Both the position numbers and the translations under genes were made by a program. This document shows positions 2,959 to 53,906 of a stretch of DNA of 64,000 bases, one piece after another; the stretch's first letter is position 1, and each line of letters opens with the position of its first letter. The notes below the pieces were generated by a model, which searched no databases, was not told where the DNA came from, and saw nothing but the letters and a program-made list of their open reading frames with translations. Source of the DNA: Rhizophlyctis rosea (Eukaryota; Chytridiomycota; Chytridiomycetes; Rhizophlyctidales; Rhizophlyctidaceae); the NCBI GenBank assembly GCA_027596075.1, contig JADGJC010000089.1, positions 564 to 64,563 on the forward strand, read 5' to 3'.

Positions 2959-3718
2959 CCCCCCCCATCCCTCATAGGTCCAACTCAATTCGTGTTTCCC
3001 CTCTCCTCTCCTTCGTTCAACCAGCTAAGTGTCAAGCATCCACTTTCCACTACTACACAATCATATCACCCACACTTCATACTCAGAGCCGCGGCTGGAG
3101 CTACCACAGCCGCACCGGCGACAAACGAAACCCCCCACCGCGGGGGGGAGGACATAATCAGCTAAGTGTTTGGGGGGTGTTTAGGCTGTCTGTCAACGGA
3201 CGAACCGAGAACGAACCAGATAATGGGTAGTCGGCCTCCGGGGTCTCCTAAGGAGCACGGAGTTTCCAGTTCGGCTATTTGGATGGGGGTGTCTCCTAAG
3301 GGAAACTTTCCAGCCCTTAACCGGTCTGGGGACCTTCGAGGGGAATTCGTCACCTATCTTTATGGAACCCATGGCAACTTTTCCCTTTACTACACATAGA
3401 AACGGCGGCGGCGGCGGCGAACGACCTTCCAACGAAGGGGGCCCACGGCGTACGAGTGCACGACATAGGTCCATCGCGGGCTTGCACGAAGAAACAGGTA
3501 CCCATTTACTCACTTGGCTTCAATTACAGAGGGCCCAATGCCGCCTATGTTGCAATACATAGCTGGTCCCAAGCCCAGATAAAGGCAGAGGGGGTCCCGA
3601 ATAACACTTCAAGAACGTTGCACCACCGCACCCTCAAGACTATTAGATATAGTTGTATATACTGTTTTGTATGATAATTGATAATATATTCGCCTGAAGG
3701 CACGTCTGAACAATACCT

Positions 3719-3770
3719 TGTGTGTGTGTGTGTGTGTCTGAATAATACACTTTGTGTGTGTGTGTGTTTC
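3719..3770. repeat. Paired TG microsatellites
   Basis: Two (TG)n tracts of about 8-9 repeats separated by CTGAATAATACACTT; the second looks like a copy of the first with its flank. Confidence 0.85.
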
Positions 3771-4052
3771 CCAAGTTTTCGCATCGAGTGATTGTAACAG
3801 TTCATCAAGTTCTTCCGTGTGTCGCGTCAGCAACTGTTGGTCAAGTCACGTTCACTATGTTCAGAATGAAGAGTCTATTAAACATATCATGGGTATCGCA
3901 CTACTAGCACCCCGTCTATACTAAACTAACAACTAAAACCGAGAAGGCCGCTCCTACACTATGCTTCCTACAATTAGCCATTACATAAGGTATCACGACT
4001 CATTGTCTACATCCATCATCACCATCGTCACAACCGTCGCCCCAACAACTCT

Positions 4053-7000: not shown

Positions 7001-10000
7001 TCTCCCCATTCCCATTCATTTTGCTTAACGACATCTCCCCGCTTGTGCGGGTGGGACTCATGATAACCGTCGCAACACTCCGCCGAGAACTCGTGCTACT
7101 CCTCGGAGGTCCACTCTCCATACTAAGTCGCTCCCTCTCCACTTCCGCCCGATTCAACTCTGCACCCTTCCGTCCCTCCCGTCCACTGACAAGACTCTCC
7201 ATGCTGTCCCGTCCCGTGATGACGTTTAGTTTGATCGTTGCGACGGAGGTGCGGCGGTCCGCTAGGCCGTCGACGGAGCGGGCGACGCTTAGTCGTCGGT
7301 TTGTGGGAGCTACTTTGCCGAAGAACTCAGTGCGGTCCGTGACGGGGATGCAGTCTTCTAGGAGTTGTAGGATGGTTTGTCGCCCTTCGGCGGTTTCGCA
7401 TGCTTTACGGAGGACTTCTTCAATGTTGACTTCTTGTGGGCCGTTTGTTGCGGGGAGAGTAAATAGACGGTGCGTTAGGCGGTTCTTCTCACTACAAAAT
7501 CATGTCAGTGCATCCTGTCCGACATGAAGCAATTGAACAAACGCAACATAAACGCAACGCAGACACCCACCCCTCCAACTCCTTAATCCGCATTTCCCTC
7601 TCCTCAATCGCACTCACAGCCTCCTGAACCTTCTCATCCCTATCCTCCTTTACCTGCCCCAACTCCTCCTTCAACTTATCCCTCGTCCTGGTCATCTCCT
7701 CCCTCCTCCCAATAGCAGTCTGCAACGCCACCCTCAACCCCGTCAACTCTTGCCTCGCCCCGTCCAACGCGTCAGTCGTCTCCAGAAGCGTCGCGTTGAG
7801 ACGGTTGATTTCTTCTGAGCGTTCGCGGAGGAGACGAGATTGTGAGTCGGTGGATGTGGTGTGGGTTTCCAGGGCTTTGGTGAGGGATCTGGTGTGTGGT
7901 GTAAAGGTGAAACACATTGTTTAGTAAGGGGTTCTGACGGAACGAGTGGCATGACATATAAGCGATGTCAACAAACGAAAAAAAAAAACATACTTCTCCA
8001 ACTCCGCAATCCTCCCCTCAAGCCCCTTCCTAACCCCGTCCATCTCCTCCTCCCTCTTATCCCCCTCCTCCCGAATCCTATCCATCTCCTCCAAAAGCGG
8101 ACCCCTAACCTCCTCCAACTCCCTCGTCCGTTCCTCTACCTCCCTCCTCGCCTTATCCAGCTCGTTGACAAGCACCAAACAATCCTCCTGACTCTCCTTC
8201 CACTTCCTCTCCACCATCGCTCTCTCGCCTTTAGCTCGCTCCACATCCCCCTGCGAGTTTCGGTACCTTTTTTCCCATTCTTTGATAGTAGAAAGATGGG
8301 CGGTTTCGGTTGTTTGCTTTTCGGCGCGGAGGTCGTCGATGGCGTTGCCGAGGGTTGTGCGGACGGATTCGAGTTCGGTTATCTTTGTGGAGAGGGTTGT
8401 GCGGAGGTCGGTCATGTCGCGTTCCCATTGGCGCCGGTGCAGGGCGGTGTGTTCTTCGATTTGGTCGATGTGGGAGAGGAAGCCGGTTTTTTGCTTTTCG
8501 AGGGTGCTGTGTGTAGGAGGTGATGGGTAAGTATGTGCATTGGTATGTTCAAAGAGCTGCACGCCGTGCAGACATAATGTGAGTGAGGACCGCAAAACCC
8601 ACCTTTCCAAAGTCTCAACCTCAGCCTCCAACCTCGCAACCTTCTCCCTCTCAATCCTCAACTCCTTCTCCACCCCCACCCGAACCTCACTAACAACCCT
8701 CTCCGCCCCCCTCTCAACCTCCTCAACCCTCTTCCTCGCCTCCCTCAACTCCTGCACAACCTTCTGCCTCTCATCCTCCACATTCCTCAACCGCTCCGTA
8801 ATCTCCGCGATCCTTCTATCCCCCGTAGCTTTGGCATCCTCAATCGACGCCGCCAACCGAGCGGCAATATCCGTGCACCGCGACTCGGAACGGTCCAGAT
8901 CGATATGGAGGGACGTGTTGGCGGTGCGGAGGGAGTCGCGTTCAGTCGTGAGGGTTTGGAGGTCGGTTTGGGCTTGGGTGAGTTTTATGAGGGTTGTTTG
9001 GAGGGAGTCGGTGGTGTGTTGAAGTTGTTGGCGGAGGGATTTCATTTCGGTTTGTTGGGAGGCCGCGAAGGCTTCGTATTTGGAGGTTGCGTGGGCGTCT
9101 TGCTCTTGTAGGGTGCTGGTGGTGGGACAATGTGAGTAATGACCTATGAATGTCCCACACCGGCATGGACAACATCAAAACAACATACCGTTTGAGAATC
9201 TGAATCTCATCCTCCCGCCTCTCCAACCCCTCCTTCAACGCCCTAATCTCATCCTTACTCCTCATCTTCATATTAACCATCTCCTGCGTCAACTCCTCGC
9301 TAACCTGCTGCAACACATCCTTCTGATCCTTCACCGAACTCAAGCTCGCCTTCAACTCCTCAATCTCCAAATTCGAAGTCTGTGCAGCACTCTTGAACCT
9401 CGCCAACTCCAACTCCAGCGTCTTGCGCTGCACCCCGACGCGGTCCTTTTCTTCTTGTACGGCTGCTAGGCGCATTTCGAGAACGGCTACGTCGTCGTGG
9501 TGTTGGGAGAGGGTTTGTTCGTGGATGAGACGGAGGGTGGAGGATTCTTCTTTGGCGAGGGCGAGTTGGGAACGGTAGGCTTCGAGTTCGGCGTCGCGTT
9601 CTTCGATGAACTCCTTTTCGTGAGCTTGGACGCGGGCGATTTCGGCTTTTGCTTGGGCGAGTTCGTCTCGCAGTTGTGCTGTTTCGTCTGGTGACAGGTC
9701 TTCCTTTGCGGTGGGTATCACCGCCTCGTCTTCCTCCTTTTCGTCTATCGGCGATGGTATGTCTGGACGTACGTCTTTCGGCGCAGGAGGAGCGGGTGTG
9801 GGTATTGGTGTCGATGACGCGGAAGAAGACGAGGACGAGGGAAAGAATGCCCCAAACATGCCGACGATGGACGATACTCGGGGCGTGCGAGGAGTGGCCG
9901 GCTTCACGGACTCCCGGCGGACAGTATCATAAATCTGTTGCACCTCTGTTTTGATTGTTAAGGATCTATTGATCTTTTCAGCGGCGGACAGATCTTCTTC

Positions 10001-20724: not shown

Positions 20725-21742
20725 GAGTTTCTTTCTCACGCGACAGATACAAGGGTTGACCAAACGTTGAGGGTTATTTGGGAGATGAGAATGTGGGAAA
20801 GTTGGGATCAAGGGACTGGAAAGAAGAACTACACAAGGTCGGGATTTGACGTTGAAGTTCAACGAGGCCAAGTATTGGTGGTTCAGTATGTCGAATCAAC
20901 TTTCTCCAACTATTTCAACCTGTTGGGCGATTTCATTTTCCAGCAATATGGACAATTATGCTACGTCCATTTCTCCATTAAAGGAGGTGAGGCTTGCAGG
21001 GTTACCGACTGAAGCAAGCCAGAGGAGCAGCAAGTACCAGAAAATGCCCATCAATGCCCATATGTGATCACCTTCTTCATACATGATATCAATGCATCTT
21101 AGCTAGGTTTTCATGGGCAGCAGCACATGCTAATTTTTGTTTATCCCTCGAAAGTGTCAAAGTTGGACATTGAGAAATGAAATCAAGTGGCACAGGTTTG
21201 CTGACACAGTCACTGAAACAGGCTGATGGCTGGCCCGCTTCTGTTTGTGCGACCGTAGTGCAGGCGTGGTTCTTCCCTTTCTATTTTGGAACAAAAATGG
21301 ACGAATTGAAATGTCCTGAGAACTTGTGGAGCCTCAAGTTTTCGAAATGTGGTGTATGACGTTTCACGCCGCAGGTCTCCGCCTTTTTGAAACACCGCGT
21401 GCCACCCCCCGTTATCAACTTACCACAAAAAAGTTCCATAAAACGGTGGCGTTACCCCACATTTGGTGGCAGGCACTCTCCTGATGCAGCAAAAGCTACT
21501 CCATTTGGAATTTGGATGAAGAGGTCCGCGGAAGAATCTTCCATGTGAACCTTCCACATTTTGTGGGTGGACTGGACTGTAGAACAAGGAGGCTGGTCAT
21601 GAGAGGAGTGGGGTTCCCGAAAGCGGAGCATTCCATCCAGGACAGCTTTCCATTATATAGGGATGATGCTTGCCCACCTCGCTCCATTACCCCAGGAAAC
21701 AGTCCATCATCAACTCCGGATTCTGCAAACACCACCGCAACT
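20725..21742. other. Intergenic region upstream of the cellulase
   Basis: No gene supported. The cellulase TATA element is at 21654-21660. Confidence 0.5.
21654..21660 (+). promoter_or_regulatory. TATA box of the GH7 gene
   Basis: TATATAG, 83 bases upstream of the start codon at 21743, in the usual range for a fungal TATA promoter with a short leader. Confidence 0.55.
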
Positions 21743-22993
21743 ATGAAGGTCTCTGCTCTCGTTGGTCTCACCTCCCTCTGCGCTGGTGCCTATGCCCAAA
21801 ACTACCTCCCCTTCTCCTACCAAAAGTGCGACACCAGTTCAGGATGCCAGACTGTAAATGCCGGTCTCGTCGTTGACGGCAACAAAAGCCCATCGTCTGT
21901 CGCCATGTCTGGATCTGGCGGCACAGTCGTCCTCTCCCAGCCCATCTCTCGTTCCTACATCGTTAATACATCCACCAACAAATACGATCTCTTGAAGTTG
22001 AAGAACAGACAGGTTTCCTTCGACGTCAACGTCGGCGCGGTAAAATGCGGGTGGAACGCCAGTTTCTACCTTGTGCAGATGAGCGGCAGCGCTTCCCCCG
22101 GCAGCGGGTACTGCGATGCGCAGGGTACCTGTAACGAAATGGACATTATTGAAGCTAATATCGGTGGGCATCAAGTCACGCCTCACCCATGCAGTGGTGT
22201 GAACGGATCCGGCTCTTGCGACCCCAACGTAAGCAAAATTCATAACTCACTTTCCTTGGACGCGCAAACTAAATTGCAATTGCATATGTCAGGGATGTGG
22301 CGTCAACACCTACAAGAGCTTCGGCTCTCAGGTCGGGCCCGGCAAGACCATCGACACCACAAAAACCTACACCGTCACCACCGTCTTCAAGACCGTCGAC
22401 AACACCGACACTGGCAAGCTCGCCTCTGTTCAGCAAACCCTCTCCCAAAATGGCAGGAGCGTCACCCTTACCCTCCAAAACGACAGCTTCTGCTCCTCCA
22501 ATGACAGCTACTGGAGCTCCCGCGGCGGCTACAACAACTTCTCCCAAGCCTTCGACCTCGGCATGGTCGGAACCTTCAGTTTCTGGGGTGGCCCATCCTC
22601 CACCAGCATGAACTGGCTCGACGGGGCTCCCAACAACAGCTTCTGCAACTCCGGGAGTGGTGCAAACACGGTCACGTTCGCCAACCTCAAGATCTCTTAC
22701 ATCAACGGCAGTAGTGGGGGCAGCAGCGGCGGCAGTCAACCTACCACTACTACCAGGAGCAGCGGCTCGACTACCACTCAAAACTCTGGTGGTAGCTCTG
22801 GCGGAAACTGCGCTGCCAAGTGGGGTCAGTGCGGTGGTCAAGGTAAGAAAACATCATCTCCTCATAAATACAAATATTTCGCAATCGCCTACTTATTCTC
22901 AAATCCGTTCATTCAGGATGGAGTGGTCCAACTTGCTGCTCATCAGGATCAACCTGCAAAGTCTCCAACCAATGGTACTCCCAATGCTTGTAA
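21743..22993 (+). CDS. Secreted GH7 cellulase (compact catalytic domain) with C-terminal CBM1
   Basis: Three exons, 21743-22228, 22293-22842 and 22917-22993, encode 370 residues. [19 protein letters not shown] is a signal peptide. The catalytic domain shows the GH7 signature [10 protein letters not shown] (nucleophile Glu, Asp, acid/base Glu; the usual Trp is Ile), [16 protein letters not shown] and [17 protein letters not shown] Gly/Ser/Thr linker leads to a family 1 cellulose-binding module ([15 protein letters not shown] through YSQCL, stop TAA exactly at the usual end). The family contains retaining beta-1,4-glucanases (cellobiohydrolases and endoglucanases). The catalytic part is only about 280 residues against about 370-430 in typical members, so substrate-enclosing loops are probably short, which would fit an open-cleft endoglucanase. 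That last point is inference. Confidence 0.88.
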
Positions 22994-24581
22994 GACGGCA
23001 TGTAGTTCCCATCTGATCGAGGCGGAGCCACCTAGACCTAGCTTAGACTAGTTACCACCGCGCCCGCATGGCTTTGTTCTTTTATTTTCCAGTAAGGGGG
23101 TAGGAAGAGGCTGGTTCTCATTCCTGATGTAAATACGATGTTGACTTGCTGGCAAGAGATCTTCTTTGTTTGGTGCTACCCATTGTCTTTACGATTTTCA
23201 TTACGGGCGGCGATGGGCAGGAGATAGAATGCATGAAAAGATACCGAGAATTGGAAATGAAAACCGCATCGTCAATGGTTTTTATTGGTAAGTAATGGGT
23301 TTGGTCTCAAGCAGAGTTGTCAAATGAACGATCGAAGAATCGCCATGCCAAACAATTTACCAATGGGAGTCGAGTCAGCGCTTTTTTGAAAGCAACAAGG
23401 CGCTTCTTACCAAATTCAAGACGGACAACCTCCAACTTTATTCTGTGGTGCTGCCTGAGCTCAGTCCTGCCGGGAAGTACAGACCATCAAACGTCCTGAT
23501 CAGACCTGATCATCCTTTGGGTTATGATATTCCTCAGTTCGGCACATGATGAACAAAAGAAGTAAAAGAGAAGCACACCAGCGCAACCATCCTGATCTCC
23601 AATGCATACGTTGCACTAACGGCCGTAACGAAGGTGAGGAAGGGACTTAGTGCAATAATGCCCATGATGCAATGATTTCATTTTTGCTTTTCTGGCCCCA
23701 CCCTCGCTCACAGCTCCATCGAAGGGTATGACAACGTAAGCAGCTTCGGATGATTTCGTTTTGTTTACTGATCAAAATCGATACGGGGCATCACTGCCAT
23801 CTCGTGCAAATTGCTGATACCGTTTTTGCCTTCTGCTTTAAATCAACGGATCTTAATCAATTTAGCTCGCTAAGATGTGCTCCACTCGACAGGCAAATTG
23901 CCTTTTATGCTCCCTTTTCGCGCAACATTACGCGTGGGCAGAAGTCAAAAACTCAGCGTTGGGTGTCTCGATGGATCATAACGGAACTCACGCACATTCG
24001 ATGGCAGAGTGGTTTCGTGGATACGTTATGCATTCGCGCGTGACGCAAGGTTTCAAATGGATACCAAAGGTGGCTGGGGCGAAGAGCAATGCCAGTGGTC
24101 GGGAGTGGGCCTCTCCAAGGTGCTTCCCCTGTGCCAGGGTAACTTTGCAACTGCGGACATCAATGCTAAAAGTACTTTTCGCTAGCCAGACTGTGGAGTT
24201 GAACAACGTAGGGAATGCGGCCTCAAGGGCGCCGAGTGATGCAACCGGGGGGTGGTAGTGTCACCAGACCGTATCCTTGACGGGTGGCCCAGTTCACCTG
24301 TGAATTGCATTATGAAAGTCTGCTGTAAGTGCTGCACTTATATTGAAGAGACAAGGTGCAACACTTGTCCAATGACGCCGCATAAATTCTCACACGCTGG
24401 ACTAACGCCTTGCACACTGATCACCTAGCGAAACTTTCCTGCACCTAACTTGATTGTGCACCTCTCGGATTCCTTCTTCCCTTGCAAGCTCATCTTATAA
24501 TATCTCCTTTGTCTACTTTGAACGTCAACAACTTGTGAACAAAGTCTGCAAGAACTTTCTGTTGAAGCTTGACGCACTTTC
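22994..24581. other. Intergenic region, no supported gene
   Basis: About 1.6 kb of balanced-composition sequence between the cellulase 3' end and the giant AAA+ gene. Small open frames show no recognisable motif. Confidence 0.5.
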
Positions 24582-27500
24582 ATGGATCCGCCGAAAGAAA
24601 GCAACGCGGACTTCGACCCGGGCGGTAAAACTACACCGGATTCTCCTCACACCTCGGTCGACGTCACGGAGTTTGATCCTCTCTGTGTTAAACGGGAGGA
24701 AGTAACGCCCGACCCAGATGTCACCGAGGATGCTGGTGTGAGCTACAGTAGCCACACTGTACCTAGCGTCGGATTCGGATTTGGGGTATGTAGTCAGAGT
24801 ATACACAAGCCGAAGTTGAAGGAAAGTGGTAATAATGTATGGTTCAGACCCCGCAACGAGAAGGATATGTCTCTCCATCGGTAGTTCCTAGTATGACCGA
24901 AGCATGGGTAAGCAGCGCTCGTAGCGTGAGGTCGTATCGCGAAATATATTTTACATACCTCCACTGCAGAAGAATCCCAAGTGTGAGAGTCCCGACGAAG
25001 ATGTACAAATGACGGAAGCTGCTGCAACGGCGCAAGAAGACCATCTCGAGGAGAGCAGCATAGGCGCAACTCCAATGGAAACCGACATGACCGCGAGTTC
25101 ACCAGTAAGATCATGCCCCAATGCACCAGTTAAGATGTCATAACTCCAACAAGCCTGCATCTAATTAGCGGGATATCACCTACGCGCAAGTGGCGGGAAT
25201 GCCCAAATCTGCTGCATCGGCTAATATGCCCGAGCCGTCTACGTCAAGTCAGGTAACTCTCTTATAATGCGTAAACCATGCAGAGTCCAACTAGGCAATA
25301 ACTAAAGCTCTTGCATCCACAGGGTCATCAGATGGCCGTTGACACGCACAGCAGGTCGTCAAGTCAAGCGCAGATTGCCAAGCGAGATCTTGCCGACTTG
25401 CGGAAGGAATCATACCGGGACACAGGTGTCATCAGCTGGTTTCAGAAGAACATCTCGATTTGGACTGGGGGATTGCCGAAGACGGCTCAATCGCTCCAAG
25501 ACATCCTCGCACAGCACAACGGAAAGGGCATCAATGTCTTTCATTACCTCTTTGAGTTGTTCAGGAAGTTTGATGAGCAAACACGTTCACCCAGCTCGAA
25601 CCTCGGCAAAGAAGTAACGGCAATGGCGCAAGTAGTCCTTCAACACACTCAACAAATCAAAATGGTGGTTGACTGCTATGTGTGCATGTTTTGTTTGTTG
25701 AAATTGAAGCAGTAAGTTCGCGGCTCTCAACAATACGTTACAGATTCCGATTGAGACTGATTGAAACATGTAGATATGCTACAATACGCGGCTGCAATGA
25801 CAGAGAAGTCAAGCTTGTCATTTTCCAAATTGAGTCGCAACTGTCAATGCGGCGGACTCTGTACGCAGAAGATCTCGCCAACCTGCATCAACACCTGCAA
25901 GCCAACGAAGATCTCCTTATCCCTCTCTTCCTGACGATCCATCAAACCCTCCGAGCACGTGACTCACTGGATACAACACATGGGCCTCTCGAGGAACCAG
26001 AAAAGAACGACCATGACTTTCGGTTGCGACTTCTGATGCTGCATTTTGATCTTCTCATGTCGGTCATTCCGGTGCTCTTCACGAAGGGCAAAGATATGCG
26101 GGAGGTTTGTGAGGTTTTTCACAATCGGGCGGCCAAGTTCATGGGCGGACCTTTGAAAGTGCCGGAAGTCCTCCATACGCTGTTGACACAGCACGGTTAC
26201 ATCGAAGTCATTATACGTGGGATTGGAACCGGCGGGATCAGAGCTCAGTTTCTGCGAATCTTCCTGGATTCCTTCGCAAGAGATGTGCGACAAGCATCAG
26301 AGAAGGAGAAGCCGAAACACGAAGCTCTCTGTAAGGCTGCAGAATCGATGTTAAGTCTGATCGCGCTGATCACGGACAACAATGTTGAGATCATTTCGAA
26401 GTTTGTGTTTCCACCAGAAGGTTCGTTCTTCTTTATAAAATCAGGTCAATGCGTCAAAAGGAAAATTTACGCCTCCCAACTTCTCAGGTTTCTTTTCAAA
26501 TATCCCACCTGAATCAAGCCCGAGCTTCTACGTCGGATAGTCGCAGGCGCTCGCACACTACTGCAACGAATCTAGCACAAGCGGGCAATATTCTGGCAAT
26601 GACGTGTTCGAAAAACTCATCATCCCCATCTTCCTTATGCTGCTCCAACCCGCCGCGAGTTCAGCTATCCATGAGTGGTTGAATATGCTCCCTATCGAAC
26701 TCCGCGAAGATGTCAAACAGGTCGTTGGCTCCGTCATAGAGGATAATCACGGGCTGATGATGTCAATCGATTTGCGGGCTTTGGTGTGGTGGGTATCATT
26801 TTCTTTTGTAACCGACGCATGTCGTCACAAACTAATATAAGAATAGTTTGGAGATATTGTTACCAAAGAATATTATCACCGAGCGTCTATTCTTATTGAA
26901 GGCAGAAGATGCAGCAATCAAGGCAGTTTACGACTTCCTGTGCTTGTATCAGCAAGAGCTTGACCTTCCTCAGTCGCTTGACCAATTGTTACTTCTCGAA
27001 CGACTCCTGCGCGTTTGCAACTGGATGGTTATTGATCGGCTCATCCTTCCGTTGAAGAGACCATCATGCTTGGATTCCCTGAAGATGGGATCGGAAGGGG
27101 ACATGGCTGGGTCTGCTGATTACAAGCAGGCAGCAGTCACTTTGGCGAATGTCTTCAAAAAGGTTTGTAGCAACCATTTGAATCATGAATTATAAAACCC
27201 TTGCTAATGTCGATTGCTAGGTTGGGTTGATAACTGGTGAAGTTGACCTACGTAGTGTCCAGAAGCAATTGCGCGACGCCGAAGTCGAACACGTAAAGCA
27301 CGGAGGTGAACTGAACGCGGCGTACCAGGTCTTTGCAAGAGGGGCCGCCCAAACAATCTTCAGCAACTTGGAGACGGGGTTTGCCTCCGATGAACCCAGT
27401 TTCTGCGGCAATTGGGCTCAGCGAAACATTGTCGTGGGGCCAGAGATGTCGATGCTATCAAAAGCACTTCTACAATCAGCGGCAAATAGCTGGCTCAAAA

Positions 27501-30500
27501 TCCGGATGACATCCGATGTACGGAACTTGACGACTATCAGAACAAATTGTCGAAACTCCTCGGAGACAATTTTCGGGCCTTCCATTTCGTGTACTTCCGA
27601 GCCCTTCAAGCTTCATCGAAGCTCATAGCATTTCTACAAAGCCAGAAGGATTTTTCTGGAAAAATACAGAGGTTGACATCGGAGTTACAATGCGACCGCG
27701 CGGGACTAGAGAAGTTGAATAGGATCGAAGCAGTATATCAGATGATTGAGCCGCTGGAAAAGATCAGGTCCCTCAAAAACCTGGGTGATACGATTTCGAA
27801 AAGGATGCCCACTGTTGACAAAACGGTCGCGTCCACGTCGATTCTTGAGGCGCTCGCGGAACAGCTGCCAGATGTCAAAGTACTGTTCGGTTTGAAGCAT
27901 GGATTGCGGCTGGAGAGTGCAGTAGCATACACTACAAAGTTGCTTAAGTCGGGAAGTTTTCGGTGTCGTCTGACTGCACATCGCGAAAGCGCCAGTTTTG
28001 TCTTTCAATATGCGGAGACGGCGTCAGAAGCTCGCGTCCTCCCTGATGCCCATTTGAGGACCTGCTGTTTCAGTTCAAAGTCTTTGTTGATCAGCAAGCC
28101 TGCGACAATAACCAGGCAGAAAATATCTCCAAGTTCTTGGCGGTAACGGAGATGGCAAAGCAAGTTTACCAGACTAGGATCCGCTTGGAATTTGCAGGCC
28201 ATCCTAATTTTCATGCCGAGCCCGGAGAAGTTTTGCTTCCCACATCTGTGCAGGAGAACCGCATGATACTGGACAACTTGCACAATATGTATGACGATTG
28301 GGAAGCAACTCTGAGCGAAGCACAAGCTCACACTCCGCGACTTTGGCTTCTGGGTCGAAATGAAAGGGCTAGTTTCATCAAATTGTTCCTCAACCCAATG
28401 CGTCCTGACGATCTTCGTCGGAACCTTAGACCATACCTGCTGATTGCCATGCCGGACCTCGAAGGAGATATTGTCGAAAGCATTCTCACCAAGGCCGACC
28501 TTCGGCCTAGGAAAAAGCCCGCAAAAATCTTTGGCCCTTACGTGTCGATGGCATGCGCCTTTTGGATGCGGACCCAGCTCTCGACATTGACCAGACCGTC
28601 TCTATTAGCTTCACCACATGCTCACTGTGCCACATTGTGGTCTGGATGCGACAGACATCTTTGAGTTGCTTTGCTCAAAAAATGACGGGCAAGCTCCTCA
28701 TCCTTCTTGCCTGCTGTGGTGCAGCGGCACAACCACAACATACAATTTGGAAGCATTCGTGATGTCGTGTAGACATCTGAAAAGTCCCAAGTTTTTCATC
28801 ATGCAGCCAGATGCTTTACAGCCTCAGTCGCGCCAATGGCTTCTCCGGGCGCTGGCTGATGATGATCAAATGCCAGTCACATTGATATTTAGCCAAGCAC
28901 ACGGAATTGAGGTCTTTTCCATTTGGAACATCGAATGTTTGACAAAGGATGACCTTGCTGCAGAGAAAGTAGAGCTGAGGTCCTGCCTCGTTCTGGAGAG
29001 GCTTGAAGTTGTGCAGGGCGAATCCTCAGCTGAGAAGTCGGTGTACATTCAAAGGCAGCTTGATGGCCTTGTTTCACGTGGTGATGTTGCCGACAAAGAC
29101 GTCTACCGGGTAGCGATCAATGAAGACTGGATGGTTGCTACGTTTTGTTCCATCTGGAACAACATCGCTGCCGACAGCCCATCCATTGCATTACATTTCA
29201 ATGTTAGCGCGTACGCATCCTATCAAAAACTGGACCAATTCTTCTATGATCTACTCCTGTTTGGGTTGATTCGTAATGACAAAACGGGCGAAATCTTGCA
29301 TTGTGGGTCAAAGCTTCGATGGTACATTTTCGTTGAGCTCTCGAGAGCGCCAGAGGTCTCAGGGATGACAAATTTGAGTACTGCCGAAGATGTCAAACGG
29401 GGCCTTCCGGTGATTTTTTCCTGTCAAACTCATTCCGGGTGGAAGACCGAGCCATTTGAAGTCACCCCAGAAGTCCGGCTAGTGTGTTCATTTCTTGACG
29501 CTTTGCACAAAATTATGTTGCAGGATGTACAATGGGAAAGATCCACCCGGGCACTTTGTGCGGATGCACGAGCTCAGCAGGCTTTGCAAGAGTCAATACA
29601 TACCATTGCACAGTATGTCATGGCAGTTCAGGAGAACGGTGATGATGAGAGGGTCCGGGCAACAGCAGCATCCATCTTCACAAACATAGACGGGAAGTGG
29701 CTTCCAGGGTCGATGAACATCTTCTTCAAGCTCTTTGCCATCAAGCTACAAGGGCTGCAGAAGTTCGCTTCGTACTGTTGTGAGTTTATGCTTTCCTTCA
29801 AAATTAAACGTCCCGAAGAACTGACGTCGACCATTACAGGCACGGCGGATGTAAATGTTGATCGCTTTTTGGCAAGAACATGGATTACACTTTTCCTGCA
29901 AGAAAGTGCATTTTTGGCACGAGCGGAGATTGACCTCAACATCGTCACATCGTCTTGCGTGATGTCCTTGTGTCAAAGCGCTCCGATACCTACAGTGGTA
30001 TTCATAGACTTCACACCTGGCCCAGCTCCTGAATACCTCACCCGGAACGAAGTGATCAGAAATCCGGCTCGGCTACGATCGGCTGTAGCATTGCAATTGG
30101 GGATCGTCAATACGTCAAAAATGGCGAGCGTGATTTCCCAACTGGACTACATCATGACTCCGACTTTGGCTGTGAAGCTCCTCGCCATACACAGTCGGCG
30201 ACTTGTTGGGCAGAATGTTGTGTTGAGCGGCGGAACCGGTGTTGGAAAGACCGAAATGCTGGAAGTCTATTCATTGCTCATGAACTTGGATAGCAATGTC
30301 ATTCCGGATCTGTTTGGCATTGTGCTTGAACAGTTCCAAGCTGAGTTGCCATACATATCTGCCGACGCGCGAGGTGCTGCAGGTCAGCTGCTTCTACAAC
30401 TCCCCAAAATGCTTCTTGGCGAGTGTATGTCTGACGAGAAGCCAGTTGACATCATTAAGGAACTCATACGTGTGATCTATCAAACCACGGAAGCAAACTT

Positions 30501-33500
30501 TGCTATCATGGCTCTACGCATGGTGCAGAAGCTATCTGGCGCTTTGAAAGAGTACCCGTTGATTAAGGTTAGAAGCGGTGGCATTTTGGAGACCATTGAG
30601 AGCGTTGACAACTTGGCTGCCGCAAATGTCATCCCCGACAGCATTCGCTGCCGTAACGCCGATGACCTGGAAGAAGTTCTAGAGGAGTTTCTGAGTGCGG
30701 ATTTCCAGGGCTTGTTGTTTCATCCACTTCGAATGCATGCCGGTTTGAGTGCTACTATGATAAAGAGTGACCTGGCGGCCATTTGTAGTGCGGCTTCGAA
30801 TGCGAGCGGGGTCTCAATGCTGTTGTTCATTGATGAGTTCAATACCTCATCGTCCATGGGAATAATGAAAGAGCTCTTGTGTGACCCCTCTCTTGATGGC
30901 ACCCCGCTACCTGCGAATCTGTTTATAGTGGCCGCAATGAATCCTCATGCGATCAGCTCAGACAAAAATACCGCAGACTTTACGGGAACCAACTCACAGA
31001 CATCCTCGTACGAGTACATTGTTCGACCGGCTCATGCCTCAATGCATACTTTGATGCTTCAGTTTGGGGAATTTGAGGGCGCGGAGGAAGAAGATTTTGT
31101 CCATATGGCTGTGAATGCCGGGCTTGCCGGATCAGATGAAAGCATCAAAAGGATTTTTGCCGAGGCAATTCTGCTTGGCCAGCGCTTCATACGTGCTGCA
31201 AAGATCCATCGGTTAAAGGTGTCTATCCGGGATGTTATGAGAGCAGTCAAACTTTTCCAGTTCTTTGTCGGACCTGGTAGCGAGATGTTAGTGACCAACA
31301 ACATGCCTCATCGTATTGGTGCTCGAAAGTGTCAGCAACTTGCGGCCTTGGTATTGTCAATTACTCTTGCATACGGGTATCGGCTGGAAGGCAAGAACAG
31401 ATCAACGCTAACAAAGAGACTGACAGAAAATTGGAAATCTCTGTTTCGAGGTACATAGATTTCAAGAGAAATTCATCGTATACTACATGTGACTTATTGA
31501 ATCTGTAGGTGTCGACTGCGCAGAAGTAGTCCAAGCATCTCTGCAAAACGTGTACAATGAATTACGCTTGCCCGCCTGCGTAGCGCCCACGCAAGTTTTG
31601 ATCGAAAATCTCTTTACTATCATTGCATGCATCGGCGCAGAAATCCCATTGACGATTGTCGGGCCGGCCGGAAGCTCGAAGACTTTGGCGTCATCATCAG
31701 TGTTTGACAACATGAAGGGCCAGAATGCCACATCGTCGTTGTTGAGAAAGTTCAAACGCGTTCATATGTTTCGTTATCAATGTTCTGTGTATACCACCGA
31801 CAAGCAACTTGAGGCAGTTTACCTGAGTGCCGTCGACCGACAACGCACTTTGGCAGCATTCAGCGAAAAAAGGGATATAAGCTGCGTTTTGCTTGATGAA
31901 GCTGGTAAGCTGCGCCGAGTCATGGATTTCATTTCCTGACGAGTGCAGAGAAAATTCTGATCACAAAATTTCACGATGAAGGGCTACCTCAAGAGATGCA
32001 AATGTCATCAAAAGTCATACACTTCTACACGGACAAACCCGAAGTGGCAACAGTGATCTTGAGCAATAACATATTGGATGCGGCGAAAACAAATCGGACG
32101 GCCTTGCTCCAACATCCTGCTACAGTCACAGTGCAGGATATGACGGTCCTCGTTCGCAGCTTAGTTTTTTCACGCAAACAGTCTCAACATCTCCACGCGG
32201 ATCAGGAGCGCCTCATCAAAGCTCTTTGCGCTTGCTTCACGAAATCCAACCAGTTTACTACCCATCCCAAGCGAGAATTGTTCCAGCAACGTGATTCCAT
32301 CTACTTCCTCCGACGGCTCCGCCTACACAGTAATCGGATCGTGAAGCGCGATGATGATCTGTACGTCTCGGGTGACGCGCTCCTGGATTCAATTCGAAGG
32401 AAATTCAACGGGATTTGGGAGAACAAGCTTCAGGAGTTGATTGATAGCTACTTCGATGAGCTCTCGGGTGCGGACAAGCGCATTGTGCGACCTACTGCTT
32501 TACCATTCGACAATAGTGTGGAGCCCTTGCTGCAAAACCTGACAGAAGCTGGACTCTCGCGGGAGGACGTGAACAGCAGCGCAAGCCGCTTTGCAATGAT
32601 CATTGATCCGACCAATAACGAGATTGCTGTATCAATTTTGCTTGGATTGCTGAAAAAGCGTGGGGCCAAGCAGGAGACTTATGAAGTGGTTCAGGTTGGC
32701 GATTTTGTTGGGGACAGGAAACTTCAGCTCGGACCCACGTCATTGTGACGATGAAGGAAGCAATGAAAACGGGGTCGATGGTTATTCTGGTGAACTCCGA
32801 ACCTGTCCGGACGAACTTCTATGATGGTGAGTGCTCAGGATGAAATATTATGCCAGCAGCGTAGTGACTCAACATTTTGATGACAGTTTTCAATCGGTTT
32901 GTCACCATACAACCCGGGGATGACGATGCCCCCACAAAGTTTTTTGCCAATGTTGCTGTGGGCTCCCTCAGTAAGCCATGCGAGATTCACCCAGGGTTCA
33001 AGATCGTCATTCATATCCCACGGTCCACTATCCGCGACTGCCCTTTACCATTTTTGGACCGCTTTGAAAAGTACTCAATTTCAGTCGGGCATTTGTTGAC
33101 ATCGGCGCTTGCGGATATACCTCGACCGTTACGGAGTCATATTCAAGAACTTCGGGCCTGTACTTCAGATTTTGTTATTCAAAGCCTGAGGAGTAACGCA
33201 CGATGCTACATGCTGTCCACCCTACCGAGACCGTTGAGTCTCTCTTTTTGGCCGTCCTCGAGTTGAGTATTACCAAAAGGGCATTGACAATACCGAGCTG
33301 CTGCTCTCCCGCGTTTGCCAAAGTTGTTGGAGACCATGACCCCATGCAGATAACCCAGATGGCCCAACAAATCAACTTTGCGGTGTTGCAACTTGCCCGA
33401 CCAGAGGAAGTCATTCTGAGCAACTTTCTCCCTACATCTTATCAGCGGGAATATTTGCTCCATCAAAAACGTTGGAGCCTATTGAGATTCTTCTCTGCGA

Positions 33501-36500
33501 TGATCAAAACCATCGATGGTATTGCAAACCCATGCGATGTGGAATTGAAGTTGTACACTTTTGTTCGCACTAGTCGAGACGTAGCACATTTTGCAGGTAG
33601 AGTTCACGATGTGATTTACTTACTTATGCAATTCTATTGGGCTGCTTCTTATGCTGGACAACGCACATCCAGGTGCGGCACAAAAAATTGTGGAACAGAT
33701 GAGAACCCCTGCGGCCTTCGTATTCATGGAGCTGGCGCACGTGACATCTGCAGAATCGGTGGAGCGAGAAATTGAACGTATCTCAGCTTCCGGTCACAAT
33801 ATGCGCATCTTCTTCTGCTCCATCGATGCAAACGTATGCAGCGCAACCCAGATCAATTTTCTGAGGAATTTGATAGATGCAAAGTTGTCCACCCACAGCT
33901 TCAATCTCTTGGTTCACTTTTCAGCTGAGCAACATTTTGCCAGACCCTTACAACATGCCATCTTCACCAACGGCTGGCTCTACTCTTACATGGATTCCTT
34001 CGGGTCGCTGCAAACAGGTGGAGTTGAAGAATACAGCGACGGTCGAGTATGGATGCAAACGGGACTCGGTTTAATTCGTGACAATACCGAGGCACTGAAA
34101 TCCTCACGTGAACTTCTTGAAACAGTATTCGAACAAACGATTGAAGTTTTTGGAAAGAATGTGCTTATACCGCCTTTCCGTCCCACACATGCTCGTCGTT
34201 TGCAGTACACAAGGGAGTTCTATTTGTCACGTGGCAAGCGCACGGATGTGCTGCGAGGTTTCCTTGCACGAAACAGATTCGTGCGGGAAGCTATCATTGG
34301 CCGGTTTGCAGATGTATGGGGATCCGACCTACTTCCTAGAATGATCAGGCATATTGCCAATGATTTGTCATCACGGGGGTCCGAGCGTTCGATGATTGAC
34401 GTAATCCAGGGTTCATTGCAAACCGTGATGGAGCCTTACATTTTAGAAGTTTTGGCATGCCTCACCGGAAACTGCTCTCTGGAAAGGCTATGGGAAGTGT
34501 TGGAGGAAGGGAACAATGAAGATAATGGATATCGGCATATGGTGTGCGCTATCATTGCTTCAATTCCGATCGAGATGAAGGCTGGCATGTTTTCTAGGGA
34601 GCGTTTATTGCGCGTGGAGTTCAAGTCCCAGATCCCCCCACACTTGCCACTCTCTGAGCACATCACGAGCAAAATGTCATCCTCTGAAACTCGAGCCAGA
34701 CAGGCTGTTCCTTTAGATGACGCCATCCATTTCCGTCAACTTGTCGATGCAGCTGCGGAGGAAGCTCAACTCAGTCCCATTCTTCATACTATCGACGCGG
34801 ACGACACACTCAGGCGTGACTTCTTGAAAGACTTCGTTTGTAGGACCCTGCGAGCATCCGATATGCCAGCAGACGTCGTCTCCTTGGCCGCCAGCCTCGT
34901 TGAAGCAATTGCAGGTCCGGATATCGTGGCCGTTATGCTTTTGCAAGTCTTTGGTCAGGAACTCGTGACGGAGTTGAGAACGGTGATTATGCTGTTGGGA
35001 AATTTGATCAAAATTTGCAATATGTCCGATCTGATACAGAGTCTACGGGATACGGCGTGCCGGGTGGGCTTCACTCAGCATATTTTGGAGGAAGCCATAC
35101 ATTCCTTATTTGATATTGTTCAAAGGCTGAGGACTCCCGAGGACGTGACCACATGGTGTCAGGCGATGCGGATTTTGAGGAGTCGCATCAAACGAAAAGG
35201 CGCCTTAGATGTTTGGGCTCAACAAACTGCGGTGAAATTCGACTTCTTGAATATTCTATATATCCGCTTGCTCCATGCAGATGGAGATGAGGATTACAGA
35301 TTCTTCGTCTTGAACAGCGTACAGCAACCGTTACAACAAGCACTCGAGTGCGAGGACCGTTTAGCAACAATGCTAAGGCTCTTTGATGTCGAAACGGTGC
35401 CCGCAGATTTCATCATGGAAGTGATTGACTACTTCCTGACGGGATCCATCATGTCAAATGACGATATTCAGCTGGTGCTGCGTTGGTGCTGTGGTTCGCG
35501 TGACCGTGACCAAGATGTAAAGCGTGTGGCCGCATTGCTGCCGATTGGATGGAAGGTAGCTGTTGTCCGGCGACTCCTTGAATTGAATAGGGAGGAGACA
35601 AGATCGATGATGGAGCAGATTATCGGTATGACCGATATGTCAGAGGTGCGGCTTCCCCTTCTCCATCTTACGGATGAATTATGGAAAGCTATTCGGCGTT
35701 TTGAAACGGGTCTTCCGGGGAATATACCAAGCGAAGTTGCCATTGATTTTTGCCACATCTTGTACTATGTGTTTTGTGAAGATCAAACGGCACAATCTCT
35801 GACCAACCTCGTTGCAAAGTATAAAGGTCCATCGGCATTCAAGAGACTTGTCAACTTAGTCTTGCCGTTCGGATCCACGGATCGGACCACACATAAAACC
35901 CCTCATGTTGATGAGCTTGAGCGAGCAGCAGTCGCAACTGAGATAGTGCGGAAGTGTACTTTAGAGCTTTCTGCGGCTGAATATGCACAAAGGGCGCTGG
36001 GGTCATGGCAGGGTGATCTGCGGGCCGTACTTAGGGATATACTGACATGTGACGAGCGCTCTTTCGTCTTTGTCCGACCTTTCTTCCTGCAGTCATTGAC
36101 GCACAAAGGTTTATCGAACTTGCTCAGTTCACAAACCACCTTGCAGGAATTAGGATTGAACGCCTGGTACACACCACTCGAGCGAAATGATCAAATTCGT
36201 GGTTCCGCTACTTTCTCTTTCATTGCGACAGAAAGCGCAATTGGTGTAGATGGGTCCATGTATGCGGATTTCGAGAAGGTCAGAGATATTGTGGCAAGGA
36301 AGCGCCTGGATGCTGTTGAACTGGGACGCTTCATGGCAGAGGTGGTCCGAGATGGTGAAGGACGGATATATCAAGTGCGATTTCTGATGGCACAGGTTGT
36401 GTACCATTACTTTTTCAAAAAGGGTACACAATGTGACGCAATGACGGCGATATTGCAAAGGCACAGAGACCAGCTTATCATCACCGCCAAAGAGCAATGT

Positions 36501-39500
36501 GCATATGAGTTTCTCGCCCGAGGACCTGCCAAACGTGTCGATCCGACCAAACGCTCCATCTACGAATTGTTCACTATAAAGGAAAATCAGAAAAGCTCCA
36601 TGGCGGACGTGATGGTGAATTGCTTATCGCTGGCGCTTGGTGCGCCACGGGAATCGAATCATTTGCATGGTAAGCATTTATAAGGCTTGCGAAATTGATT
36701 CCACAAACGCTGACTTCGATCTCTGTATAACTTAGATCGGATTTTCAACCTTGGAAACTTACACCAGTTTCTCTGTCCCGGGTCTGAATACAACCGCATG
36801 AATATGGATTGCGGGTTCACACTGGGATACAGTGGTTACCAACAAGGGCTGGATCTCACCAACAACCTCAACATCATGGGCAATCACCGGAAATACCGTT
36901 TAAGGTTGAACACCATGACATGGGCTGCCTTATGCTTCGGCGCCATATTGGATGAACCGGGAATGATGGCGGCAGCACAAAATCACTTTCTCAATTACAT
37001 CCCTCAAGAAGCTCAAGATCTCGGTGTGAACCGCCGGGGCCCAGTCACTCAAGCTGAAAATACTCGGCACTACATGCTGACACGAGCACAAGTGTTTTGC
37101 AATCTTTTGGAGACGGACGGTCACATCGCCCGTGAAGATGGTCTATTATTCTTGACCGAGTCCATCCTCACTCTGTGGTTGCGAATCTACAACAACGGAT
37201 CACCAAGGGACCGGCCGCGAGATCTTGTCGGCAGTACAGGCCAAAATCAGACGGTGATAAACTACGAGACATACTTGCAGCGGCATGTGTTTGACGATGT
37301 CAGTCGACGAATTCGCGAAGTAGCTGACAACTATCAGAGATCCGCACTGCAAAATGATAAGATTCGTGTCATTTCCGACCTGCAGAAGGAGCAAGCCATG
37401 TACTTGTCATCGCCGTTGCTTTCCAAAGATCAAGTAAACGAGTCTTACGCAGCGTTGGAGACCCGTATGCCGCTGTACGAAGCTTTCACAGCTTTGCTGC
37501 CGCTGTTCAAAGTCTTGCAGGCTGTTCCGCTCTTGATACATATGTATCGCACATTGAACAACATCTTTGCATATCGGCTGACCTCTGGCGAACTGCACCT
37601 CCCAGTTCCAGCCTGCTTATAACAAATTGCTCAGTTGGAAACGCCGGATACTATTGCCCAGTTCAGAAAGGATTGGGAAGCCTTCAAAGCGGTTTGGGGG
37701 ACAGTTCGTGAAAGCTTGGGCAACCTCAACCCCGTTTGTGCGCATCAGGTAAGACTTTGATTACAGCTTAGGGGTTCCATGCCGCGCGGGACTTCTTCCT
37801 CGTCAAATGACTAATCACTTCCGGCAGGGTCGGTATCAAGTGGAAATTCCGGTCATAGATGACAGCACTCCGCTTGCAACTCTTATTACGGAAGATGTAG
37901 ATGGTGTCAATGCTATTATGCGGCTAGTGGAGTCTTTGAAGGGCCAGGAAGCGGTATTGAAACTACTGGATCCGGATTTGGATTCCGACGAAGATGGACC
38001 AGGACATCGGTACGCGAAGCTCAATGCGGAAAGGGGCGACCTTTTGTCTGGAGAGACACCTGTTGTCGATGCAGACTCCATTTTGCAAAGTGACACAACC
38101 ATGTTTTTCGGAAGCGACATGTCACTAGACTTATCTGCGGGGCATGTTCAGGAGCAAGAGGTCCAAAGAAGTGCCAAGTCTTTCCGAAGCATTGCGAAAA
38201 GAGGGAGGTGATTTGGATTGGGACCGCATCGAGAAAAAGGTTAGTGTGACATGTCCATTTTTCAAAGCACCAAAGATTAAACCTGATTCTCAATATCTGC
38301 AGATCTTGGAGTTGAGTAACGGCAAGGCTCGGATCAGTACACAGTACATCACCACTATCTTTCCGACGATGAAGTCTGATACAGACTTCAACATCGAGCG
38401 ATGTGACGAAACGGCCGGTGGTACAGATGCCATGTCCAAGCTGCGACAATTTGTACAGATAATCCGCCCATCACCCGGTCGCTTTGAATCCCACCTCTCA
38501 ACCGGCGAGTTGAAACGTCTCAGGACAAGAACCCGCTGCATGTCAAAAGCCGACCTGATCCTGTGTGCTAATATATTGGGTCATTTGGCTCAGCATTTGA
38601 TGGCTCCAGACCCTGCAGATGTTCAAAAGACGCGGGGAGAAGGACAAGATCCAACTCAGCGCATCGGAGATATCATTGAATCGGCCTTCGGACCTGCCAC
38701 ATATGAGAAAATCCAAGCCTGTGCAGGAAAAGAATTTGTACGAAAACAACTTCATTACTTGAGGAACATTTGCTCAATAATCGTGGCGAAATTCGACACC
38801 TGCGACTTCTTGTTCTCGGATATTCCGGACGAGCTTGATCAACCAGTGCAGGAGGATGTGAAATCAAGGTTCCAGGAAGAGCTCCGTATCGCGTCGGAAG
38901 ATCCGAAAACACGGGAGAATATGATGACTTTGCTGCAAAGGGCAGTGGAAACAAGAATCGTCTGGACGGAGCGGTGGAAGTACCGACCGGAAGAGTCTTT
39001 GAAAACCATTCTGCTCAAATCGGTCGCCGAATCAAATTCAGCGTGGCAGAGCTCGATTAGGGGATGCGTACCAGACTCCCTACGTGTCGGGAATTACGGA
39101 ACCTTCTTGAGGATTATGCATCTGGAGTGCGGGAAGGCGGCAGGCCAGCGCAAAGGGCAGCGGTACCAAGAAAAGCTTTCGGGCATCACCGTCCCTATTG
39201 ATCCCCAAGAGGAAGATTGGAACAGCATCATGCACCCTCCCATCCCGTCCTTTGCAACCTCCGCTCCTCCGATAGAATTGCGGCCCAAGCAGCAATTGGC
39301 ACCTACCAAGCCCAACCGTCCATCATATTGTAAAGAAGAACCTTGCGGGATTTGGAACCTGGGCCACACTTGCTTCGCAGCAGCAACGATCCAATGCATG
39401 TTTGCAACTAAGACAATGCGCCAGACCCTCCTATCACCTACAAGTCATAACGGGGTGGCAAGGTCCCTACAACGCGCCGCCGAACAGCTTTTGCGACACA

Positions 39501-41559
39501 ACGGCCGCTCAATCGCCCTCGACGAGTTCATGCAACGCTTCCGAGAAAGGATGCCGCGATTCCGCCCAGGACGTCAGGAGGATGCGCATGACTTTTTCAC
39601 TCGGCTCATTGATATGATGCCTGAACTTGGAACACCCATCCGGGCCAAAGTAGATGCCAAACTATGTTGCACCACTTGCCACATCGAAAGCACATCGGCT
39701 GAGCAATACTACGGCGTGTCGCTTCCGTTGGCCGACGGTGGGGAAAGAGCGCAAAGTGAGGTGACCAAGCTGTTGCAAAAGCTGGTTCGCCGTGAGGTAA
39801 TCGAAAGGTGGGTATCATGCGCATTCTAGACTTTCATGCGCCTCCTCAATGATTGAAGATCTTTTGTCGTCCTTAGAACGTGTGAGAAGTGCCCCGACAA
39901 ATACGCTACCAAAGATACGATATTTACAGAGGCGCCTGCTGTATTGATGCTGCATCTGAAGCGATTCACCGAACACCTTGGGCGCGTCAAGAAGCGGTCG
40001 GAGGCAGTAGAAATTCCCACACAGCTTACCTTGGATTGCAAGGCGGGTTCTGTGAGATTTGAGTTGAGGGCGATATGCGTGAGTACCGTGCTGATCATGA
40101 ACACGTCGAAATGTGAAATTAACCTGTCACCATCATAGAACCATATTGGACAGTGCATCCAGTGGGGCCTTTACACTGCAACCATCAAATACGGCGCCAA
40201 TTGGTATGAGCTGAGTGATAGTCGGGTGAAGGTGACGCAGCTGGAAAGGAGGAGTACGGAGGCGTACTTGCTGTTCTACGAACGCCCCGAAATTGCGACC
40301 CCACAAACTGAAGTGCCGTCGACGACTCTTGAATGCGAAGAAGTTTCGGTTGATGATCAAGCTATGGAGGTGGACGTGGAGTTCCAACAATCAGCACCAC
40401 CTGGTCGGCCGCTCTCGCTTCATGTTGGCGACAATACCGCACCGACCGAGAATGAAAGCGTGTTCCTTCATTCATCGGTGGAAGTTTCACCTGCATCCCT
40501 TCCAACAGCATCTGCTCCGCCAACAGCACCTCAGCTCCAAGATCAGGACAAATATGAGGACGTGGAAATAGTTTCCGTCAGTCTTCCTACGCATGCTTCG
40601 TCCACACCATCCCGCACGGCACAAATTCAACCAAAGTCACTTACGTCGGGTTCGCTCTTGCCCGTTAATCCAATTTACACCTCAGCTACGCCTTCCAGCC
40701 GTCTAGCTACACCAGCACCTCCAAAGTCCACCCAATCCTCCAAACCCCTCCGCAAACCCCACCCCAACAAACCCCCGTTCAAACGCCCACTCAAACTCCC
40801 CTCCACATCCCAAACCCAATCCCCCACCCCACAACCACACCCACCACCACCACCCCTCCCAAAACGCATAACCCTCCGCAAATTCAACCAACACCGCGGC
40901 GGCACTCTACTAATCATCCCCGCAACCGCAACCCTAACCGACCTACACCAAGCAGCATCAAGCGCCCTCGGAATACCCGTCGTCACGCTGCGGATGTTGC
41001 CCCCTTCTGAGGCGTTGGTGCAGAGTGTGGCGATTTTAGAGAAAGATGAAGTGGTGCAGGCGTTGACGGCGGAGGAGGAGAAGGAGTTCCAGATGTGGTT
41101 TTGCTGGGGGGCTTCACGAATAGCTTGGTCGGAGGAAGAAATTAGCTGTTTGCATGTATATAAGCAGTTTCTCAAATTTGCAGAGTTCGTAGATAGCGGT
41201 ATGTCCTGTGCATTAAGTAAAAGCAGTCACTTGCGAATAGCTCACTTGAAATGTGTATAACGAAATATCATTGCTCAAATTGCATTGCGTTGCACTATAC
41301 TTACACTGATAGTGTGTGGTGTGTCTCTGATGTGTCAAGTCCCTTCTCTTCAGGAAACACAAGCCCCCTCCAAGAACAAGTTCAGACTGTGAGCGACCAA
41401 GCAAGGAGATACTCGATTAATGATATGAATTCCATTAAAGTCTTCATAGAGAAATTTTATCCGGGTGATTCGACGCTCTCATCTATCTGGTGTCAGAATG
41501 GTCAGTCCAATCCAACAAAGGTTACTACCTTCAGGAATGACATCCTAGAAGAAAACTGA
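24582..41559 (+). CDS. RNF213 (mysterin)-like giant AAA+ protein fused to a USP-type deubiquitinase domain
   Basis: About 20 exons encode roughly 5,000-5,200 residues. Exons 1-5 are 24582-24785, 24848-24907, 24970-25104, 25169-25252 and 25323-25711, all in phase; the last are 38303-39807, 39877-40078, 40139-41198 and 41354-41559. An acidic N-terminus is followed by helical RNF213-like sequence. The AAA+ core has two nucleotide sites: Walker A GGTGVGKTE (30229-30255) with Walker B LLFIDEFNT, and GPAGSSKTLA (about 31661) with CVLLDEA. RNF213-like C-terminal sequence follows without a RING Cys/His cluster; the RZ-finger position holds only FLCPGSEYNRMNMDCGFTLG. In the same frame comes a USP domain: Cys box GIWNLGHTCF (Cys codon 39371), CTTC and CEKC zinc pairs, and a His box where GHYTA is GLYTA (Leu codon 40169). 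A Pro-rich linker and a possible ubiquitin-like fold end the protein. Frame problems near 26550, 28060, 32735, 37621 and 38120-38151 need tiny introns or sequence correction. Confidence 0.82.
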
Positions 41560-52585: not shown

Positions 52586-53906
52586 TTACATCCAACTATT
52601 TAACAAAGTAACCAAAGGCACCAACGCCCCCAACACCTCAACAACCTTCATTGCAAACCCATCCTCCAAAACCTCCTCCTGCCGCCACTCCCTCCCCGCA
52701 ACAAATGCCTTCAACCGCAACAACTCAATCTGCTCATGATCCTTCGCGTACCCCTTCGGCGCTGTCTTCAGTACCGCATCATGCGACTCAGCCGATTTGT
52801 GCAGACCTTTGATACCACCGGGCGGGAAGGCTTTCTTGAAGGCAGCTGAGTCGACGATGTTTAGGAGTGGAGTTGCGTTGGTGTCAATGTGGTGGCGGAT
52901 GGAGGCAAGTTGGTTTGAGGTTGGGTTCCAGAGGCCGCCTCCGGCGAAGCAGGATGAACCTATTGAGATGTAGTACCCTGCGTGGGGGCCCTGATTCGTG
53001 GAAAATCGAAGTAAACAAAGGCACTGGCGTGGCCAAAGGGTCAAATCTGAGACTGTCACGAACCTTCTTTCCGGACCTTGAAAAGGCTGCAGAAAGATTG
53101 GTCTTATATGGTGTCTTGTCAGCAGAAAAACGGATGTCTCTGTTTATGCGGAACATGGCTCCTTTCGGTGGGTCATTACGGATGGTCACGTCTTTTAGAC
53201 GCATTGATTTCATTACTACATCTACAAAATCCAGGAAGTTCTCCTTGGATGCCTGGTAGGGATTCTTTTGAGGACAAATGCTACGTGTTAATGATCATTT
53301 GCGTGATGAAACATGCTACTCTTCCGGGAAACACTTGGCCACACTAACCTCATGCAATCTGAACCAATCTCGATCATTATTTTCCTTCAATCCCTTCAAG
53401 AAGTCCATAGTGAAATCATATATCGTTCCCTTTGGTCCTTTGCGTTTCGGTACGGGCCGTGGAGGTATTTTGATGCGTGTGATGGTGCCAAATCCGGTTT
53501 CTTCTGTTGTAACGGTTCCGGCTTTTGCTTTCGCGGCACTAGGTGAAACTTTGGATTTGCGCGCTTTACGCGATGCATGATCTTCTTCCTCCTCTGAGTT
53601 GAAGTCGTCGTCGTCATTATCAGAAGACGCTTCTTCACTTTCCGCTTCGGACTCAAAAGCCGATTCCGAGTCATCGGAAACCGGTGATGGAGACGGTTCT
53701 TTGGCGCGCTTTTGCCGCTTTGTGCTAGTGCCAGTGGTTTGTTGAGGTTGACCGCGTTTCATGGAGCTCTTCACCACGACACTATCAGACGACGTTGTGG
53801 GTTTGGAGTCGTTCGAGCAGGCAGGTCGTCGTCGTTCAGAGCGACGAGCAGGTGCACTTTCCATTGCAGGGTTTTCAGGGGTTCCCCGTTTTCGTTTCGG
53901 TGGCAT
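52586..53906 (-). CDS. DUF2461 family protein with acidic/basic N-terminal extension
   Basis: Three exons. MPPKRKRGTPENPAM starts at 53906. About 130 disordered residues follow, with basic clusters (TSTKRQKRAKEP, resembling a nuclear localisation signal) and an acidic run (DNDDDDFNSEEEED). The domain begins YDFTMDFLKGLKENNDRDWF, continues SKENFLDFVDVVMKSMRLKDVTIRNDP and GAMFRINRDIRFSADKTPYKTN, then (after an intron) GPHAGYYISIGSSCFAGGGLWNP, all hallmarks of DUF2461 (TIGR02453). It ends NSWM-TAA at 52586. The biochemical function of this widespread family is not established; fungal members commonly carry such charged N-termini. Confidence 0.85.

Follow-up and report, generated by a model that had tools for sequence, protein, structure and literature searches.

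RNF213, or mysterin, is a ubiquitin writer (E3 ligase) of cell-autonomous immunity. Its AAA activity is described as coating targets and its RZ finger as giving the ligase activity (PMC11549300), RNF213 without its RING is reported to be still an active ligase (PMC7311170), and USP15 is reported to deubiquitylate mysterin in human cells (PMC5343593). Among the papers listed, no description of an RNF213-like/USP fusion protein was found by title or abstract start in searches pairing RNF213 with fungi, chytrid, Dictyostelium or homologs, subscription journals lying mostly outside the scope of these searches.

Such an arrangement is considered here in the soil chytrid Rhizophlyctis rosea (Chytridiomycota), whose 44.1 Mb assembly of 634 contigs was the genome searched, and more precisely in a stretch of 64,000 nucleotides of it, C623:564-64563, hereafter the window. 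In the reading that we regard as probable, the gene codes for an RNF213-like AAA+ giant devoid of E3 modules (E3-less) and ending in a USP-type C-terminus, in which the AAA part would serve as a scaffold and the tail would set the output, the R. rosea copy itself being in decay or misassembled.

The AAA core and its relation to RNF213

The main parts of the gene upstream of the USP domain are as follows:

24582 to 41260, plus strand: whole RNF213-like/USP gene, from the ATG in common with HDV00_012358 to a 3' limit set at the stop of the USP-holding frame
28612 to 31450, plus strand: long AAA exon that matches RNF213 structures; its Walker A is GGTGVGKT (30229-30252), its Walker B LLFIDEFNT (30820-30846)
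31509 to 33596, plus strand: second AAA module and following region in several exons, with Walker A GPAGSSKT (31661-31684) and Walker B CVLLDEA (31883-31903)
33673 to 37748, plus strand: region colinear with the E3 part of RNF213, with neither RING nor RZ finger; where the RZ would lie, near 36807, DCGF is conserved

The start that had been proposed at 24582 is the very ATG of the deposited model HDV00_012358 (P0003), whose protein matches the window exon by exon over 24582-32745, at 100% over most pieces, and stops at 32745, at a frame change. The gene end is uncertain: the USP frame closes at 41260, and the end at 41559 proposed earlier could be reached with one extra intron. At the search sensitivity used, the gene is single-copy in the R. 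rosea assembly. As side observations, HDV00_012358 omits 27518-27609, where the relative P0006 has coding sequence, and the window further holds a PTEN-like gene (2-1903, minus strand; PTEN_C2 E 5.2e-17), a leucine-rich-repeat and RhoGEF gene (4056-7499, minus strand; RhoGEF E 2.2e-9), a GH7-type cellulase gene with an apparent CBM1 tail (21485-23048; PF00840 E 1.2e-19) and a DUF2461 gene (52887-53294, minus strand; E 1.9e-19).

Regarding the AAA core, the nine distinct PDB sequences matched by exon 28612-31450 at E<=1 are all RNF213 (9jw1 at E 5.6e-13 and 8s24 at E 7.2e-13 among them), and both Walker A/B pairs are preserved and can be aligned with their RNF213 counterparts, which bears out the RNF213-type AAA modules that the earlier note had recognised. 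A search with the AAA region retrieved 39 proteins at E <= 0.01 (8000 candidates scored), including those of chytrids, amoebozoans, a rotifer and Rhizophagus as well as vertebrate RNF213, and the window gene shows colinear homology with giants of Nowakowskiella, Zopfochytrium, Physocladia and amoebozoans.

Further downstream, profile comparison with the E3 region of RNF213 revealed a partly colinear relationship (Prob 42.8, E 2.5e-4; reversed control 0.44). In an alignment of 20 rows, namely 16 from the group (the window and 15 others) and four for comparison, the RING zinc ligands were found in 0 of the 16 group rows, the window included, and the RING columns are filled in three of the four comparison rows; at the RZ position, DCG is kept in 15 of the 16 group rows and the remaining ligands in none of them. 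Scanning 41 proteins for motifs gave RZ in seven and RING in six, none from the E3-less group, to which Pfam adds an RZ in Rhizophagus P0027. Over the whole R. rosea genome, Pfam PF20173 (RZ) had a single match, on another contig, and none in the gene; this sole RZ-type zinc finger match lies outside the window, at G000:C605:114513-114620 (52.5 bits).

An AAA tree of 34 rows (out of 42, after removal of 8 that were short, outside the family or the window's own deposit) splits with an SH-aLRT of 100 into 11 rows, from animals, Rhizophagus and others, and 23 comprising the window and 22 others, on a midpoint root and with composition and long-branch warnings. Neither RING nor RZ was found in any of the 22 rows grouped with the window. 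As judged from these comparisons, the R. rosea gene is a member of an E3-less sister group and not RNF213 proper, so that the former description as an RNF213-like giant stands for the AAA core but does not extend to RNF213 itself, given the missing RING and RZ and the separate branch. The rotifer protein P0025 (Rotaria sordida) also falls within this group, which it would extend to animals unless it is a contaminant or was transferred.

The join of the C-terminal region to the USP domain

The downstream part of the gene comprises the following features:

38240 to 38302, plus strand: intron of 63 nt, GTTAGT..CTGCAG
38303 to 39807, plus strand: open exon running from the RNF213-like C-terminal region to the USP Cys box, with relative matches within 38723-39157
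39344 to 40279, plus strand: USP domain (Pfam UCH) in three exons, with Asn at 39356-39358, Cys at 39371-39373, Leu for His at 40169-40171 and Asp at 40217-40219
39808 to 39876, plus strand: canonical intron of 69 nt inside the USP domain
40079 to 40138, plus strand: canonical intron of 60 nt inside the USP domain, directly before the His box
40868 to 41068, plus strand: C-terminal KHA/UBL-like stretch, a weak match (PF11834, E 0.0069, 16.8 bits, below the 29.6 cut-off)

The RNF213-like giant is joined to a USP domain, and this join is real. As had been noticed at the outset, exon 38303-39807 is uninterrupted from the C-terminal region into the USP Cys box, with no stop and with canonical GT/AG borders. 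The domain search then proposed for the spliced product returned Pfam UCH at 119.1 bits (E 3.2e-34, cut-off 23.9), and the window DNA itself gave 107.9 bits at 39344-40279 over positions 1-254, i.e. all 254 of the profile.

The weakest link of the join is, on present alignments, the C-terminal region. Against the 11 relatives used to test colinearity, homology with the giants is colinear up to 37718, and 38723-39157 is matched again in two of them, P0012 (E 5e-7) and P0010 (E 0.010). Among the 41 proteins found, phmmer with the window C-terminal region matched P0012 only (E 5.1e-9), and no match emerged when the region was compared by profile with the C-termini of vertebrate RNF213 (Prob 0.5). 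This ties the region to the sister family and not to RNF213 itself, and the RNF213-like C-terminal sequence of the earlier note is to be understood in this narrower sense. The three named chytrid relatives P0004, P0005 and P0009 all end before the USP position; a protein search with the C-terminal/USP region retrieved just two USP proteins, both outside the family, and exon 38303-39807 alone retrieved none.

A search for other proteins carrying both modules, also suggested beforehand, had one positive outcome, UCH being listed for 1 of the 39 AAA-region hits. This protein, P0008, is a EukProt transcript-derived ORF of 3853 aa in which an RNF213-like AAA part is followed by the C-terminal region, UCH (E 2e-40, positions 2-254) and then SAM. 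The same order in P0008 indicates an architecture and not a one-off misassembly. That two neighbouring genes, one RNF213-like and one for a USP, were accidentally read together is thus very improbable and largely refuted: USPs are certainly common, with 37 UCH matches in the genome, but the two parts share a stop-free exon and recur in that order within a transcript-derived ORF.

As for the catalytic competence of the domain, the closest PDB match of the window USP is USP21 (E 1e-25), in alignment with which Cys, Asn and Asp are kept and the His at the catalytic position is replaced by Leu (GHY to GLY). As the His of the GHY motif is the catalytic one, cleavage by the R. rosea USP is unlikely, and of the ubiquitin-removing or -binding roles previously envisaged for this copy, the former is improbable and only the latter is left. 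The domain probably either reads ubiquitin or is dead, ubiquitin binding by it being possible. In P0008, the USP Cys-His-Asp triad is intact, with the Cys box and a GHYTAL His box kept. A recent copying from another R. rosea USP was also considered and is unsupported, the sole other match being of 40% over 60 residues (E 7.9e-5).

Frame changes and the state of the R. rosea copy

Frameshift-allowing alignments to relatives revealed five supported frame changes and one in-frame TAA upstream of the USP exon:

28040 to 28060, plus strand: frame change with no room for an intron, matches being close on both sides in P0005, P0006 and P0012
28457 to 28642, plus strand: at least one intronless frame change, needed by all four aligned relatives at differing positions
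32716 to 32730, plus strand: one-base loss in a conserved VGDF...KEAM stretch, a net -1 being needed by all 11 relatives tested; site at which the deposited protein stops (32745)
33177 to 33226, plus strand: frame change with no room for an intron, needed by all five aligned relatives
37620 to 37622, plus strand: in-frame TAA in conserved sequence, on both sides of which three of three relatives align, avoidable only with a 30-nt GT..AG intron
38080 to 38190, plus strand: frame change from f0 to f1 between coding pieces 37828-38142 and 38168-38239, in three of three relatives, at 37984, 38080 and 38185

With these lesions lying upstream of the USP exon, the notion that the giant and the USP domain are fused in one frame has to be given up, and the assembly as it stands does not encode the single intact polypeptide formerly proposed. 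Very short introns (23-31 nt) behind the frame changes were considered and ruled out, since in relatives the sequence is conserved on either side of 32716-32730, at a net -1, and since, in the Cpn60 genes, the shortest effective joint-bearing gap is 48 nt, one same-frame joint at -30 excepted. Two further candidates were left out of the count, namely a frame change near 27.49 kb, whose upstream side is matched by the deposited model alone, and a -1 at 38513, seen in the P0006 alignment only, at a poorly matched alignment end.

In the Cpn60/TCP1 genes of the same genome, taken as a control, 0 of 28 joints were suspect over 4311 codons, a rough comparison in that the profile was closer and the test simpler than for the RNF213-like/USP gene; when this gene is put through the same joint test against distant relatives, 37 of its 73 joints are flagged, ordinary introns among them. 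From this control, unequal as the tests are, it is concluded that the damage is concentrated in the RNF213-like/USP gene, be it real or a local fault. The R. rosea copy would then either be in decay or be wrongly assembled at this place, and its present output may be nil.

Decay under relaxed selection, where the lesions and the loss of His would go together, has considerable plausibility while falling short of probable: five supported frame changes, a TAA and the loss of a catalytic residue accumulate in one gene, but no damage is seen in three exons measuring 502 to 1022 codons, the Walker pairs are both perfect, and within the USP exons the His change is the only lesion. The converse supposition, that the gene is intact, that the frame changes and the TAA are local sequence errors and that one full RNF213-like/USP polypeptide is made, deserves some credence without being favoured. 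The clearest lesion is indeed a one-base loss, very long open exons persist (949, 1022 and 566 codons), the introns within the USP have canonical borders, and its fold residues are kept except His; against this, the Cpn60/TCP1 genes come undamaged from the same assembly, the adjoining GH7 gene reads, by eye, through an ordinary intron, and the change from His to Leu is a substitution and not an indel. Fission of the gene, so that its RNF213-like part upstream and its C-terminal-region/USP part downstream now yield separate proteins, would make sense of two lesions that each cut the USP exon off from the rest, one being the TAA at 37620 and the other the frame change near 38.15 kb, as well as of the early end of the deposited model at 32745, but is unlikely, as two C-terminal/USP searches gave no same-assembly protein among candidates limited to lengths of about 311-989 and 1684-5357.

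C-terminal tails and comparison with known systems

Whatever the state of the R. rosea copy, the E3-less giant with a USP-type C-terminus, which is the reading retained here, could work as follows. The AAA core would be an RNF213-type ATP-driven scaffold assembling on a target, the output of which would be set by the C-terminal tail; with RING and RZ gone, a relative would retain the core that assembles but depend on some other output, which would be ubiquitin removal in P0008 and ubiquitin binding at most in R. rosea. The tails of relatives do vary, with SAM in P0008, P0017, P0021 and P0024 and ankyrin in P0006, and this variety (USP, SAM, ankyrin) would fit an exchangeable C-terminal slot. 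Degenerate USPs suspected by eye in P0016 and P0020 from their paired CxxC C-termini were unsupported by Pfam and hhalign (hhalign USP scores of 27.0 for P0020 against 12.8 to 14.3 for shuffles, and of 17.1 for P0016 against 14.0 to 23.3).

The closest PDB match of the P0008 USP is yeast Ubp8 (E 3.9e-17), and the window USP matches that of P0008 at E 1e-6 and P0001, an unrelated USP protein, better (E 4e-24), the P0008 and window USPs not being mutual best matches among the few compared. Since the best matches differ and P0008 stands outside the chytrid grouping on the AAA tree, two captures of a USP are possible, as is a single old capture with losses. The fuller proposal, that the C-terminus of the sister family is an exchangeable slot for output domains into which a USP was captured at least twice, yielding a remover in P0008 and only a reader in R. 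rosea, is tentative and rather doubtful in its entirety.

Were an RNF213 relative devoid of the writer parts to carry an eraser- or reader-type domain, it would show the AAA core to be useful without ligase activity, and RNF213-like/USP giants would be natural material for separating the two. Compared with RNF213, the R. rosea gene has in common the AAA modules with both Walker pairs, but canonical RNF213 possesses RING and RZ, whereas the R. rosea gene lacks both, sits on a separate branch and carries a USP instead. With the USP family (C19, e.g. USP21/USP2), its domain shares the fold, Cys, Asn, Asp and two CxxC pairs, but has Leu in place of the catalytic His present in that family and is lodged in an AAA giant. 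P0008 comes closest, with AAA modules, no RING or RZ found and the C-terminal region followed by UCH as in R. rosea, and differs by its intact USP triad, where R. rosea has Leu for His, and by its SAM. Finally, the RNF213-like/USP chain mirrors the USP15-RNF213 link reported in human cells, where a USP likewise acts on an RNF213-type protein, except that these are separate proteins and the chain would bring both together inside one polypeptide (PMC5343593).
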